Source of the DNA: a virus
Length of the DNA: 35,697 nt
Strand: one strand, 5' to 3'
Virus record (IMG/VR): IMGVR_UViG_3300046657_000030
Location: 1 to 35,697 of that record
The notes beneath the pieces were generated by a model. That model was not told the origin of the DNA. It was given only the letters and a program-made list of their open reading frames with translations, and did no database searches. The translations under genes were made by a program, and so were the position numbers. Position 1 is the first letter of the stretch; each line of letters starts with the position of its first letter. This document shows, piece by piece, positions 13,711 through 29,894 of this stretch.

Positions 13711-13926
13711 TCAGTCGTCGTCTTCAGTCTCGACGCAGACGCGTTGCTCGCCGAGGGCTTCAGTGGCGCGCTCGTAGAAGTCGAACGGCACGATCACCGC
13801 CGCTTCCTTCCCTCGGTTGACGAGGATCGTCGCTTCGCCGGCGAACCGGGCGCGCGAGATGACCTCGCCAAGGACGTTACGCGCTTTGGCGATCTTGGTC
13901 CGGCGCTCGGTTCGGGTCGCGGTCAT
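13711..13926 (-). CDS. Phd/YefM-family antitoxin, apparently orphan
   Basis: 71 residues of Phd/YefM type: a short N-terminal DNA-binding region (IAKARNVLGEVISRARFAGE), the beta hairpin TILVNRGKEAAVIVPFDFYE, and an acidic tail. Such antitoxins repress their own promoter and neutralise RelE/Doc-type toxins. No toxin gene adjoins on the same strand. It lies antisense between the tRNA and the HNH gene, as an independent single-gene unit with palindromes upstream and its own terminator. It could protect against host toxins or act purely as a regulator. Confidence 0.85.
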   Translation of the reverse strand: MTATRTERRTKIAKARNVLGEVISRARFAGEATILVNRGKEAAVIVPFDFYERATEALGEQRVCVETEDDD

Positions 13927-13935
13927 AACTACACA

Positions 13936-13974
13936 GTAGCGGATTCGCTACGTTCATCAACGCCGCGAATTCGC
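13936..13974. promoter_or_regulatory. Palindromes upstream of the Phd-like gene
   Basis: GTAGCG-GATT-CGCTAC (13936-13951) and the perfect palindrome GCGAATTCGC (13965-13974) lie 10-48 bases upstream of the antitoxin start and share a GCGRATTCGC-like core (R = A/G). They fit paired operator sites for Phd-type autoregulation. Confidence 0.55.
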
Positions 13975-20741: not shown

Positions 20742-21005
20742 TCAGGCGTTGGTCTTCTTTGGGGCTTCGCGGCCGACGGTGGGGGCGCGCTTGCGGTCGG
20801 CGCCGACGGCTCGGGCGATGCGGCGGAAGAACTCGTCGGACAGGCCGGTGAGCTTGGCGAGCTGGGCAGGGGTGGCGCCGGCGAGCAGGTCGTCCGCAGC
20901 CCGCTTGCGGACCTCTTTCAGTTCGGCCTTTGCGGCTTCGTGGTGGCGCTTGTGGCGGGCGTAGATCCGCTGGTTCTCGTCATCGGGTGCGTGGTCAGTA
21001 GCCAT
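20742..21005 (-). CDS. Small HTH-like regulator
   Basis: 87 residues from the ATG at 21005. A basic helical N-terminal part (IYARHKRHHEAAKAELKEV) leads into a helix-turn-helix-like segment (GATPAQLAKLTGLSDEFFRR). It is the only leftward gene in this stretch and sits opposite a rightward gene across paired TTGGCCA palindromes, so it is probably an autoregulated repressor. An upstream ATG at 21053 would read through one operator and is rejected. Confidence 0.65.
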   Translation of the reverse strand: MATDHAPDDENQRIYARHKRHHEAAKAELKEVRKRAADDLLAGATPAQLAKLTGLSDEFFRRIARAVGADRKRAPTVGREAPKKTNA

Positions 21006-21020
21006 GGCCCCATGCTCCCA

Positions 21021-21113
21021 CAACGTGTTGGCCATCAGGAAGGCCACCTTCATGGGTGCCCCTAAAGAATCATGATGGCAATCTCGGTGGCCTATTGCGT
21101 GGCCAACACGTTG
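21021..21113. promoter_or_regulatory. Paired TTGGCCA operators in divergent promoter
   Basis: CAACGTGTTGGCCA (21021-21034) recurs exactly inverted at 21100-21113. The second site belongs to a fuller palindrome TGGCCAA-CACG-TTGGCCA (21100-21117). They flank the AT-richer region between the leftward HTH gene and the rightward gene at 21165. Best explained as operators for the HTH protein. Confidence 0.6.
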
Positions 21114-21164
21114 GCCACTAGGGTGGAGTCATCGCCAAGCGCACCAACCGCAGGGGAGACGGAC

Positions 21165-26083: not shown

Positions 26084-26368
26084 ATGAGCACCGAGCCGTG
26101 GACTATTGAGAACATCCGCGAGGCGCTCGGAAACCCGAAGCTCTCGAAGAGGTTCCTGGCCGAGATCAACAAGGCGCCGGCCCATCAACTGCTCGCAGTG
26201 TTTGCCAAGTGGGAGCGCGTCGCTAAGGACACCGTCGCCGCTGTCGAACGCGGACGCGAGATCGCCGCCGCTGAGGAACGCGGCGAAGACCCCACCGCCG
26301 ACTGGCCCGACATCACCAACCTCGTTCGCGCGGAAGCCCAACGAAACACGTCACGCAACGTCGCATGA
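26084..26368 (+). CDS. Putative antitoxin of a type II pair
   Basis: 94 residues from ATG 26084 after GGGAGG. Mostly helical and acidic (WTIENIREALGNPKL, KRFLAEINKAPAHQLL). Located 17 bases upstream of a RelE-like gene, in a cassette with its own AT-richer promoter region (about 26020-26070, TTGCGC and TACTGT boxes). Antitoxin role is inferred from order and size; I do not firmly recognise the family. Confidence 0.65.
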   Translation: MSTEPWTIENIREALGNPKLSKRFLAEINKAPAHQLLAVFAKWERVAKDTVAAVERGREIAAAEERGEDPTADWPDITNLVRAEAQRNTSRNVA

Positions 26369-26385: not shown

Positions 26386-26628
26386 GTGTATGAACTGCGC
26401 TGCGACCCCGCAATCACCGCCATCTGGGACAGCCTCCCCGACGCAGCCCGCACCCGCCTCGCACACGCACTCGTGGCCGTCTGCGAAGACCCGCTCGCGA
26501 CCACCGAGCCCTACGGCATCGACGACGGCGTAACCCGGCAGTTGATCCTTGACGACACCATCGCCGTCCTCCTCGTCACCGCCGCCATGAAGCGCGTCCG
26601 CATCCTCCAGATCAACCACCTCGGCTGA
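26386..26628 (+). CDS. RelE/ParE-like toxin
   Basis: 80 residues from a GTG. The pattern YELRCDPAITAIWDSLPDAA, then LAHALVAVCEDPL, and the closing strands TIAVLLVTAAMKRVRILQINHL fit the RelE/ParE fold, which cleaves ribosome-bound mRNA or inhibits gyrase. With the upstream gene it probably forms a stability module. The divergence from well-known members leaves the target open. Confidence 0.72.
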   Translation: MYELRCDPAITAIWDSLPDAARTRLAHALVAVCEDPLATTEPYGIDDGVTRQLILDDTIAVLLVTAAMKRVRILQINHLG

Positions 26629-26781: not shown

Positions 26782-27117
26782 GTGACCGACTTTCCCGACG
26801 ACCTCGTCCAGCTCCAGCGCGCAGTCCACGCCGCCAACGCCGACCTGCGCACCTTCCTCGACGCCCACCCCGAACCGCCCGAGCCCATCGACGGCTGGCA
26901 CGACAAGCCCGGTGAAGGCTACTGGCGCGACCGGCAGCGGCCCGCCTCAGCCGGCTGGAGCGACGACGACAAGCAGCACGAGGCCGAGCTGCGCCAGCGG
27001 CTGCACGAGCTCATCCCGCAAGTCCACACCCACCCCCACTGGGCCACGCTCAGCGGACCCGACCTCGTCACGGCGCGCATGCGGCTCAAGCACATCGACG
27101 ACCCCGCAGACGGCTGA
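26782..27117 (+). CDS. Hypothetical protein
   Basis: 111 residues from a GTG start; the ribosome binding site is weak. Acidic, helical, His/Asp-rich middle, and a C-terminal ARMRLKHIDDP. No family recognised. It converges on a leftward membrane-protein gene. Confidence 0.65.
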   Translation: MTDFPDDLVQLQRAVHAANADLRTFLDAHPEPPEPIDGWHDKPGEGYWRDRQRPASAGWSDDDKQHEAELRQRLHELIPQVHTHPHWATLSGPDLVTARMRLKHIDDPADG

Positions 27118-27665: not shown

Positions 27666-28073
27666 TCAGGCCGCGAGTCGCAGGGCCTCGGCCTCGAACT
27701 CGGCGCGCGCCTCATCGGCAGTGTCGAAGCCGGCCTGCGACACGATCACCGGGGTGCCGACCGGGGTCCCGAAGTCGAACTCGTCCTCATCGGTCGACGG
27801 CGCGTAGACGTCGACGGCGAACGGGGAGAGAGCGGACGGGGCGCAGGCGATCAAGCGGACGGTCTGGCCGGCGACCGTGGTGGACGCGAGGGTGGTCTCG
27901 ACCTCGTCCTTGTGGGACTCGTGGCCGCACGCGACGGCCTCGGCGAACGCCTCCGCCGAGTGGCGGTCGTAGTCCGTCGGCTCGGTGCGGCGGAGCGGGT
28001 GGTCGGGGCAGATGATGCCCCAGCCCTTGCCGTCGGTGCGGGGGAACGGGACGGCGGTCAGGATGCGCTCCAT
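27666..28073 (-). CDS. Hypothetical protein, divergent from the RHH-like gene
   Basis: 135 residues from the ATG at 28073, preceded by GGAGGAG. Contains IICPDHPLR, CGHESHKDEV and an acidic C-terminus (AGFDTADEARAEFEAEAL). No family recognised. It is expressed opposite to the RHH-like/GIY-YIG-Phd gene pair across two palindromic sites, so it is probably co-regulated with them. Confidence 0.7.
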   Translation of the reverse strand: MERILTAVPFPRTDGKGWGIICPDHPLRRTEPTDYDRHSAEAFAEAVACGHESHKDEVETTLASTTVAGQTVRLIACAPSALSPFAVDVYAPSTDEDEFDFGTPVGTPVIVSQAGFDTADEARAEFEAEALRLAA

Positions 28074-28111: not shown

Positions 28112-28170
28112 GGTGGTTGACCACCCCGATGTCCCTACTGTGCCACACGCTTGACGGGTGGTCAACCACC
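28112..28170. promoter_or_regulatory. Inverted pair of GGTGGTTGACCACC operators
   Basis: GGTGGTTGACCACC (28112-28125) and its exact reverse complement GGTGGTCAACCACC (28157-28170) lie 45 bp apart between divergent genes. Each is itself a GGTGGT/ACCACC dyad. The second ends 16 bases before the RHH-like ATG. Likely operators for the RHH-like or Phd-domain protein. Confidence 0.65.
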
Positions 28171-28186
28171 GCGAGAAGATTGCGGC

Positions 28187-28378
28187 ATGGCTAACCAGCA
28201 CAAGCACCCAGTCCGCGGACTCCGCGGCATCGGCGGCGCACTGTGGGCCGACTTCGAAGCCGCTACGGCACGAATGGACAGTGATCGATCAGCCGAACTC
28301 CGCGCCTTCATGGAGTGGTACCTCCGACGCCCCGGCGCCGAGCTCCCTAGCCGGCCGGAGGTGGGTGACAGTGAGTGA
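28187..28378 (+). CDS. Small ribbon-helix-helix-like protein
   Basis: 63 residues from ATG 28187. The sequence LWADFEAATARMDSDRSAEL, then RAFMEWYLRRPGAELPSRP resembles small ribbon-helix-helix DNA-binding proteins of Streptomyces mobile elements, but no clear N-terminal strand is visible. It overlaps the GIY-YIG/Phd gene by 8 bases and begins 16 bases after a palindromic site, so I infer it is an autoregulator of this pair. Confidence 0.6.
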   Translation: MANQHKHPVRGLRGIGGALWADFEAATARMDSDRSAELRAFMEWYLRRPGAELPSRPEVGDSE

Positions 28379-28790
28379 AAGGACCGCGCTCTACCGTCTC
28401 TACAACGCCGAGGATCGCCTCATCTACGTCGGCGTCACCAAAGACCTGAAGGCTCGGTTTCGTCAACACCGCGCCGATAAGCCTTGGTGGTCCGAGGTGG
28501 CCATGAAGGACGTCGAGTGGCACGTCGACTCCGAATCGGCGCTCGCCGAGGAACGCAAGCTGATCCGGGACGAGCTTCCCCGTTACAACGAGCGAGGGAG
28601 AGCCTGGCTTCCTGAGCTGGGTGATCGGCCGGCAGAGACGGTAGGCGTCGCGGGCTTCGTCCACAGTGCGCGCGGGTTCCTGAAGCACGTCGTAGAAACT
28701 GACGCTCCGCTGATCATTACCCGGCATGGCAAGCCGATAGCGATCCTGTCCCCCTACCCCCGCATCGACCAGATCGCGAAGGGGAAGTGA
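28371..28790 (+). CDS. GIY-YIG nuclease domain fused to Phd/YefM-like antitoxin domain
   Basis: 139 residues from GTG 28371 (GGAGG nine bases upstream). Residues 5-75 form a GIY-YIG domain: LYRLYN with Y8, IYVG with Y19, R29, E61 and PRYN with N73, so the catalytic set looks intact. Residues about 90-139 match Phd/YefM: FVHSARGFLKHVVETDAPLI, then ITRHGKPIAILSPY. I do not know of this fusion as a studied system. It may be a nuclease held or targeted by an antitoxin-type DNA-binding domain, or a self-neutralising stability factor. Both domains are clear; the combined role is inference. Confidence 0.8.
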   Translation: MSERTALYRLYNAEDRLIYVGVTKDLKARFRQHRADKPWWSEVAMKDVEWHVDSESALAEERKLIRDELPRYNERGRAWLPELGDRPAETVGVAGFVHSARGFLKHVVETDAPLIITRHGKPIAILSPYPRIDQIAKGK

Positions 28791-28827
28791 GATACCCGAT
28801 CGCACCGCGCTCTACGGTGCACACGAA

Positions 28828-28857
28828 GAAGTCCCCACCTAGCCTGGTGGGGACTTC
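28828..28857 (+). terminator. Terminator after GIY-YIG/Phd gene
   Basis: A perfect 12-bp stem GAAGTCCCCACC/GGTGGGGACTTC with TAGCCT loop, 38 bases after the stop. Confidence 0.75.
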
Positions 28858-28908
28858 GTCGTGCTGCGGCCGGCTGCTCGGTCGGCGCCAACCTCGGGGT
28901 CTCCCGTG

Positions 28909-29118
28909 TCAGCGGCTCGCCTTGGCGACGCCCTCCACCAGCTGCTGGACCGCGCCGAGAACGCTGTGCCCGACGTCGGTGGGCGCCAGGAGCAGCCCGA
29001 GGACGAGAACCACCGTGATCCCAAACGCCTGATCCAGACGAGTGCGGGGCTCGACAGGCCGACGCAACCGCACGAAAACGATGACGGCAAGCAACACGGC
29101 CACGTTGATCGTCAGCAT
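28909..29118 (-). CDS. Two-helix membrane protein
   Basis: 69 residues from the ATG at 29118, preceded by GGGGAGGGG. Two hydrophobic helices (about 3-16 and 32-46, VVLVLGLLLAPT) are joined by a basic turn (RLRRPVEPRTRLDQ), then an amphipathic end (VLGAVQQLVEGVAK). This shape is common among small genes of Streptomyces integrative elements, including spread-type proteins, but I cannot assign a function. The upstream bases 29119-29259 hold no gene. Confidence 0.7.
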   Translation of the reverse strand: MLTINVAVLLAVIVFVRLRRPVEPRTRLDQAFGITVVLVLGLLLAPTDVGHSVLGAVQQLVEGVAKASR

Positions 29119-29259
29119 CCAGCAATCCCCTCCCCAGACCGCCAAGCGGCGGATCTCGAGACGGTGTACCGCCCCCAGGCCCGGGGTGTCAGTCGAACGC
29201 CGGGAGGATGTCGCGAAAGCTGTGGGCCAGGCCGAAACCGGGGCGCCCGGACTGGGCGC

Positions 29260-29351: not shown

Positions 29352-29894
29352 TCAGGCGAGCTGTGCCCAGAAGAGATCGTGTGGGATCTTCTCGCCCACC
29401 CACGGCCGAGCTGGTGCAGGCCGGGCTCCGCTCACGAAAGTCCTGTTCGACCTGTGCTCAAGTAGCCCCGCTGGCAGGTCTCGAATGGCGCTTGCGGCGG
29501 TCCTCGCTGAGACGCCGAAGCGGCGGGCGATACCGGTCGCAGTGACCTGAGTCCCGGCGCTGAGTACCTGCTCCTCGATCTCGCGAAGCAGGGTTCGCTT
29601 GATCTTCTCCCGGGCGACGCTGTCGTCGTAGACGGCCTTCACGATCGAGCCGTCTGCCATGCGGATCGCATTGAACACTGGGCGCTCGTTCTTGGTGGCC
29701 TCTGCCTCGGCCGCCAGCGCGGCGCTTCGGGTCGACAGCCACTCGACGCTCTTGCGGGCCACCAGGTGCCACCAGTTCTTGTCCAGCGCGTGCTCCGCCC
29801 AGCGCACCTCGGGGCGATCAGAGATCCCGACGTAGAGCAGTTGCCCCTCGGAGTCGAACAGGCGGTAGATGGCTGTGCTGCGCTGCTCTTCCAT
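29352..29894 (-). CDS. GIY-YIG domain fused to helix-turn-helix domain
   Basis: 180 residues. Residues 6-77 form a GIY-YIG domain: IYRLFD with Y10, LYVGIS with Y21, R31, a Glu at 63-65 and PVFN with N75. Residues about 105-150 carry a helix-turn-helix (REIEEQVLSAGTQVTATGIA, then RRFGVSARTAASAIRDL). The tail (WVGEKIPHDLFWAQLA) is unique. ATGA overlap with the Nudix gene upstream makes them co-translated. It could be a sequence-targeted nuclease or a regulator using a GIY-YIG fold; which is unknown. Confidence 0.8.
   Translation of the reverse strand: MEEQRSTAIYRLFDSEGQLLYVGISDRPEVRWAEHALDKNWWHLVARKSVEWLSTRSAALAAEAEATKNERPVFNAIRMADGSIVKAVYDDSVAREKIKRTLLREIEEQVLSAGTQVTATGIARRFGVSARTAASAIRDLPAGLLEHRSNRTFVSGARPAPARPWVGEKIPHDLFWAQLA

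Follow-up and report, generated by a model that had tools for sequence, protein, structure and literature searches.

The 35.7-kb IMG/VR virus record analysed here (the window, at its full length) encodes a 139-residue protein in which a GIY-YIG nuclease domain is joined to a Phd/YefM-type domain. With somewhat better than even confidence, we interpret it as a free-standing GIY-YIG homing or interference nuclease that carries a captured Phd-type targeting domain and rides on the two-gene operon of an Arc-like repressor. The combination of the two domains is, as judged from sequence, real and selected; it is a new form of phage GIY-YIG nuclease, a group whose DNA-binding domains are exchangeable, and we found no earlier description of the GIY-YIG/Phd pairing in the literature searched, which lacked most subscription journals. 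The relatives of the window are Streptomyces plasmids of ~85–95 kb and actinobacterial phages, and for this reason a Streptomyces-like host is likely for the virus. Coordinates of the locus are collected in Table 1.

Table 1 Features of the repressor–nuclease locus (positions in the window).
Feature	Position	Strand	Description
Divergent gene	27666–28073	-	135 aa; no family matches; would share the RHH operators
Operator site 1, GGTGGTTGACCACC	28112–28125		6+6 palindrome, at the predicted leftward transcript start
Predicted leftward promoter	28137–28165	-	-35 TTGACC (28165–28160, in site 2), 17 bp, -10-like CACAGT (28142–28137)
Predicted RHH promoter	28151–28180	+	-35 TTGACG (28151–28156), 18-bp spacer with site 2, -10 GAAGAT
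Operator site 2, GGTGGTCAACCACC	28157–28170		In the RHH -35/-10 spacer; holds leftward -35 TTGACC
Arc-like (RHH-type) protein gene	28187–28378	+	63 aa; likely autorepressor
GIY-YIG nuclease/Phd-type fusion gene	28371–28790	+	139 aa, continuous ORF
GIY-YIG catalytic domain	28371–28610	+	Residues 1–80; Y8, Y19, G21, R29, H33, E61, N73 conserved
Phd/YefM DNA-binding-type domain	28623–28787	+	Residues 85–139; without toxin-binding tail
Strong hairpin	28822–28862	+	12-bp stem; two-gene transcript likely ends here

A GIY-YIG domain and a Phd/YefM-type domain on one chain

The fusion is read from a GTG start codon, with a further in-frame GTG at 28365, through a frame that contains neither an internal stop nor a frameshift. 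Profile searches and structure prediction both recovered the two domains that the initial annotation had proposed for this chain. In the N-terminal half, residues 7–73 match the Pfam GIY-YIG family above its cut-off (E 1e-8), and the GIY/YIG-type motif, the catalytic Arg, Glu and Asn and the fold of the superfamily are all present. The domain had been described as apparently intact, which is borne out by Y8, Y19, R29, H33, E61 and N73, all of which are present and are invariant or more than 90% conserved in an alignment of 40 sequences. In the C-terminal half, residues 103–136 score 22.9 bits with TIGR01552 (phd_fam), above its cut-off of 20.8, and residues 103–129 match Pfam PhdYeFM below the Pfam cut-off (E 5e-5). 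A profile built from the C-terminal halves of the fusions and three stand-alone relatives finds mycobacterial RelB (9g12, E 2e-8), VapB46 (E 1e-7) and P1 Phd (3hry, E 2e-6, with P1 Phd residues 6–50 aligned), each aligned through its N-terminal dimerising/DNA-binding half. By these matches, the C half corresponds to the part of Phd/YefM antitoxins that binds DNA. A tblastn search of phages and plasmids with the Phd half alone gave nothing convincing, and scans with the whole protein returned no relative from the viral contigs and a single UvrC from the genome contigs.

An AlphaFold2 model built with the 40 aligned sequences (a single-sequence run gave pLDDT 40) predicts the GIY half at pLDDT 92–98, with the UvrC GIY-YIG domains 1yd6/1ycz as top Foldseek matches (E 1e-3). 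The linker is of lower confidence (pLDDT 78–88), and the C half is a helix-strand-strand-helix arrangement (pLDDT 73–78) that weakly matches prevent-host-death protein 2odk and YefM 2a6q. Both folds are therefore predicted, the second less firmly, and the possibility that modelling would reveal neither can be set aside.

The chain stops ~8 residues past the last strand of the Phd core, so that the usual toxin-binding tail is absent. No toxin gene adjoins the fusion, whose neighbours are the RHH gene and, past the hairpin, an opposite-strand membrane-protein gene. Because both the tail and a toxin gene are missing, the fusion is not an antitoxin, and its Phd part is most likely a targeting domain. 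The hairpin region (28810–28875) has a folding energy of -43.4 kcal/mol (z -7.1) and contains no T-run, and is thus not a textbook intrinsic terminator. Further along the window, a second GIY-YIG gene (29352–29894, minus strand) has a GntR-type winged-helix C-terminus.

The operator pair belongs to the gene of a probable Arc-like repressor

Upstream of the fusion lie an RHH-like gene, the end of which overlaps the nuclease gene by 8 nt, and a divergent gene opposite, both as initially annotated; no viral relative of the divergent gene was found. The two sites between them, described as exactly inverted, are real, but each is a 6+6 palindrome in its own right and the inversion concerns the central TG/CA only. 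Both follow GGTGGT-YR-ACCACC, and there is no third copy in the window.

The initial annotation had assigned this pair to the nuclease, an assignment that we reject. A scan for the palindrome pair using DNA alone yielded 20 other viral contigs, and the same pair is found in plasmid NZ_CP026654. An RHH homologue lies behind the pair in 20/20 contigs, starting ~15–20 bp past it (the homologue of L049 is distant, at 30% identity), and a GIY-Phd gene stands beside it in none of the 20; on these grounds the pair is assigned, from its linkage, to the RHH gene and not to the nuclease gene. Exactly two sites per record were counted in 21 records, 17 of which have no GIY relative, while the remaining four have one more than 10 kb away. 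Relatives of the RHH gene are encoded by further viral contigs and by a Streptomyces plasmid; each close relative is preceded by both palindromes and lacks an adjoining GIY gene. DNA similarity between the window and these operator-RHH loci runs from ~28096 to ~28360, which marks the edges of the operator-RHH unit, and the GIY-Phd gene is likely a rider on the RHH operon.

The ATG at 28187 coincides with the predicted transcript start, making the RHH gene a predicted leaderless one. This promoter geometry, with site 2 as the spacer and the ATG at the expected transcript start, is conserved: across 22 promoter regions, TNGAC(A/G) immediately precedes site 2 in 19, and A at -11, T at -7 and A at -8 are found in 20, 20 and 17, respectively. 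On the leftward side, a -10-like hexamer lies at 16–18 bp in 19 of 21 unique promoter regions, compared with a mean of 3.6 and a maximum of 10 for base-shuffled spacers. Of 24 members of the RHH family, 17 match the PHROG family phrog_6506, 'Arc-like repressor' (best E 4e-7); the window's own member matches neither phrog_6506 nor any Pfam family, and it is called Arc-like through its family. An RHH-type sequence, again by family only, is thus combined with a palindromic operator at its own promoter, as in Arc/RHH repressors. Since site 2 occupies the -35/-10 spacer of its promoter, the RHH protein is likely an autorepressor that would bind these operators; operator linkage, promoter geometry, the leftward promoter and the Arc-like family matches together make repression of both directions probable. 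The Arc-like repressor/operator pair would be new and highly specific; there is one 14-bp palindrome pair per genome, conserved across very different phages and plasmids.

Three further loci carry a diverged RHH gene with another 14-bp palindrome pair, GGTGTAGCTACACC, ~23 bp apart (L055, ~2119–2155; L058, ~2158–2194; L065, ~2122–2160), which is absent from the window. The association fits co-evolution of repressor and operator, and would represent a natural specificity switch within the Arc-like family. In three contigs (L034, L035 and L051), the leftward operon opposite the RHH gene heads, on a reading of ORFs only, toward terminase-like genes, so that lytic genes may be under the control of the Arc-like repressor. 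A gene for a small 'FPDDL' protein lies 3′ of the RHH gene in L025, L040 and L050, the motif being clear in two of the three, and a protein resembling it is encoded in the window at 26782–27117, away from the RHH gene. On visual inspection, two adjacent small genes on the plus strand (26084–26368 and 26386–26628) resemble an antitoxin/RelE-type pair, and they match no Pfam family; similar DNA covers adjoining small genes in a Streptomyces sp. HF10 plasmid (L022).

GIY-YIG/Phd fusions recur, and one related pair shows purifying selection

The survey set comprised 55 viral loci encoding a GIY domain. Seven further GIY-Phd fusions were found in other viral contigs, with the Phd domain called by profile in L075, L083 and L089 and by alignment in L055, L057, L058 and L107. 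The same domain order hence recurs in other actinobacterial-type viruses, which disposes of the concern that the halves might always be separate genes elsewhere. An HMM of the GIY-Phd C-termini, with L107 left out and the upstream Phd proteins of L075 and L089 kept out of training, picks the stand-alone Phd proteins directly upstream of the GIY-Phd genes in these two loci (E 1e-10 and 4e-14, respectively). The order of RHH gene followed by GIY-Phd gene is common to the window, L055 and L058, and the pair L055/L058 has a dN/dS of 0.20 overall (0.16 for GIY, 0.24 for Phd), which supports purifying selection on a fusion related to that of the window. The unbroken frame, the homologous fusions and this dN/dS value rule out a frameshift artefact.

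Exchangeable C-termini and capture of resident regulators

The domains behind GIY vary, comprising GntR winged helix-turn-helix (10 of the 53 GIY proteins counted), Phd, various HTH and, in L078 and L053, RHH-like domains. The small gene upstream of GIY also differs by locus, being RHH, HTH, Phd or none. Two loci indicate how such fusions can come about, each having an unoccupied counterpart in a relative. The GIY protein of mycobacteriophage Cornie ends in 55 residues that correspond to a stand-alone DNA-binding gene in Bipolar and Madiba. From a point within the GIY gene onward, Cornie and Bipolar are 95% identical in DNA, and the resident promoter and start are replaced in Cornie by a small HTH gene together with the GIY domain. 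In L065, an RHH gene precedes a GIY domain fused to an HTH domain, and window positions 20742–21005 are the unoccupied allele of this cassette, with similar DNA on both sides: the two proteins are 34% identical over 58 residues, and the upstream DNA is 91% identical over 57 bp. These comparisons support two capture events, in each of which the nuclease is fused to a regulator that stands alone in the unoccupied relative. The stand-alone HTH gene of the window is on the minus strand, with a perfect palindrome, GTGGCCAACACGTTGGCCAC, upstream (21099–21118).

The slot of the Cornie GIY gene is occupied in Zapner and Soul22 by an HNH homing endonuclease, adjacent to an HTH gene like Cornie gp25. 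Alleles of this cluster F mycobacteriophage locus (L112, L114, L014, L113 and L116) thus either lack a nuclease or carry, alongside small HTH genes, a GIY-YIG fusion or the HNH enzyme.

By analogy with Cornie and L065, a resident phage regulator is the probable source from which the Phd half of the window protein was captured. Stand-alone Phd genes exist in such phages, as at 13711–13926 of the window (minus strand), just downstream of tRNA-Leu(taa) and with a palindrome, GTAGCGGATTCGCTAC, ahead of it at 13936–13951. Sporadic insertion with unoccupied alleles was seen for Cornie and L065, and no such allele was found for the fusion in the window itself; L117, its sole downstream relative, shares only 28918–29256. 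An S. decoyicus plasmid and L117 were considered as the unoccupied site and rejected, having one downstream gene in common with the window.

A broader proposal, which we put forward tentatively and at rather less than even confidence, is that operators, a small autorepressor and a GIY-YIG domain form a mobile unit in actinobacterial phages. This unit would insert before resident regulators and fuse in frame with their DNA-binding domain, so that the nuclease is aimed at an operator kept in the unoccupied rival allele. Such homing by regulator capture would make Phd folds one of several captured domains.

Proposed function and alternative explanations

On the reading we favour, the Arc-like repressor would bind its own palindrome pair and silence both its leaderless promoter and the divergent one, and the rider gene would provide a free-standing GIY-YIG endonuclease with the Phd-type C-terminus as its DNA-binding (targeting) part. 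Most likely a weapon in contests among related phages or phage-plasmids, the nuclease would bind a palindromic Phd-type operator on a competing genome and cut nearby, whereupon the nuclease gene would be copied in (homing) or the competitor damaged (interference). We infer DNA binding by the Phd part and cleavage by the GIY part, as well as the benefit through homing or interference and the capture in the window itself. The fusion does combine a homing-type catalytic domain with a DNA-binding domain, as free-standing homing endonucleases do, and a targeted nuclease, one option listed in the initial annotation, is the one we favour. Three findings count against this explanation: this particular insertion yielded no unoccupied allele, the GIY genes of several plasmids and contigs lie in ordinary accessory operons that are not obviously insertion sites, and the Phd half taken alone falls under the Pfam cut-off.

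A narrower form of the same explanation, whose probability overlaps with it and which we regard as somewhat unlikely by itself, is a site-directed interference or superinfection-exclusion nuclease, similar to Odn, that cuts a regulatory or replication site of a rival without homing. Phage ICP1 uses a chimeric GIY-YIG nuclease with a borrowed DNA-binding domain in this way (PMC8263062), and phages of the present kind have stand-alone Phd regulators with palindromes, such as the gene at 13711–13926; however, the sporadic and interchangeable alleles of the cluster F mycobacteriophages (none, GIY or HNH) suit mobility better.

The gene order, the overlap and the palindromic operator pair resemble a type II toxin-antitoxin operon, with a small, autoregulated antitoxin gene first, and other GIY genes, too, are directly preceded by a small DNA-binding gene. 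A GIY-YIG toxin could then be neutralised by the RHH protein or, in cis, by the Phd part. This arrangement is improbable: the obligatory pairing of such modules is not seen, as the RHH gene lacks an adjoining nuclease in all 20 contigs, the partner upstream of GIY changes by locus, the Phd half ends before the usual toxin-binding tail, and PADLOC gave no convincing match. Because the RHH gene occurs without the nuclease, the two are probably not a toxin-antitoxin pair, and the suggestion of a self-controlled toxin is weakened by the same occurrence together with the missing tail and toxin gene.

Least probable of all is a transcription regulator with a catalytically inert GIY-YIG module, for although many relatives have a classical regulator domain (GntR winged helix-turn-helix) C-terminally and I-TevI also acts as an autorepressor (PMC2988022), every catalytic position is retained across the 40 sequences and the GIY half of the related pair L055/L058 is under strong selection.

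If the targeted-nuclease explanation is true, phages re-aim a nuclease by joining it to any regulator at hand, an antitoxin fold has been put to new use as a targeting module, and the origin of GIY-YIG homing specificities becomes directly testable.

Comparison with known systems

The nearest characterised parallels are the I-TevI/Seg enzymes, homing endonucleases of phage T4 that combine a GIY-YIG domain with DNA-binding modules (PMC2988022). Like the fusion, they consist of a small N-terminal GIY-YIG catalytic domain and a C-terminal DNA-binding part and are encoded by free-standing genes placed between phage genes, and I-TevI binds an operator too. They differ in that the DNA-binding part of the window protein has a Phd antitoxin fold and its gene is the operon partner of an Arc-like repressor; for the window fusion, homing is a proposed activity. 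The actinophage endonucleases of PHROG 16880 and 3312 share the GIY-YIG catalytic domain (E 7e-19 and 1e-17, respectively), with a match that spans the GIY half and leaves the Phd half outside.

Odn of phage ICP1, an origin-directed chimeric nuclease of the GIY-YIG superfamily, is aimed by a borrowed DNA-binding domain (PMC8263062), and in the same manner as proposed for the fusion joins its nuclease domain to a domain from another element whose site it targets. In Odn, however, an N-terminal RepA_N domain precedes a T5orf172-type nuclease and the target is a satellite replication origin, so that both domain order and targeting fold differ. The Phd/YefM antitoxins (P1 Phd, mycobacterial RelB and VapB46) resemble the C half in the fold and sequence of their N-terminal dimerising, DNA-binding half, but the Phd part of the fusion lacks their toxin-binding tail and an accompanying toxin gene and sits behind a nuclease. 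Finally, the engineered Tev-mTALEN and Tev-ZFE nucleases demonstrate that a GIY-YIG domain can be re-aimed by an unrelated DNA-binding domain (PMC4065259); unlike those constructs, the window fusion is apparently natural.
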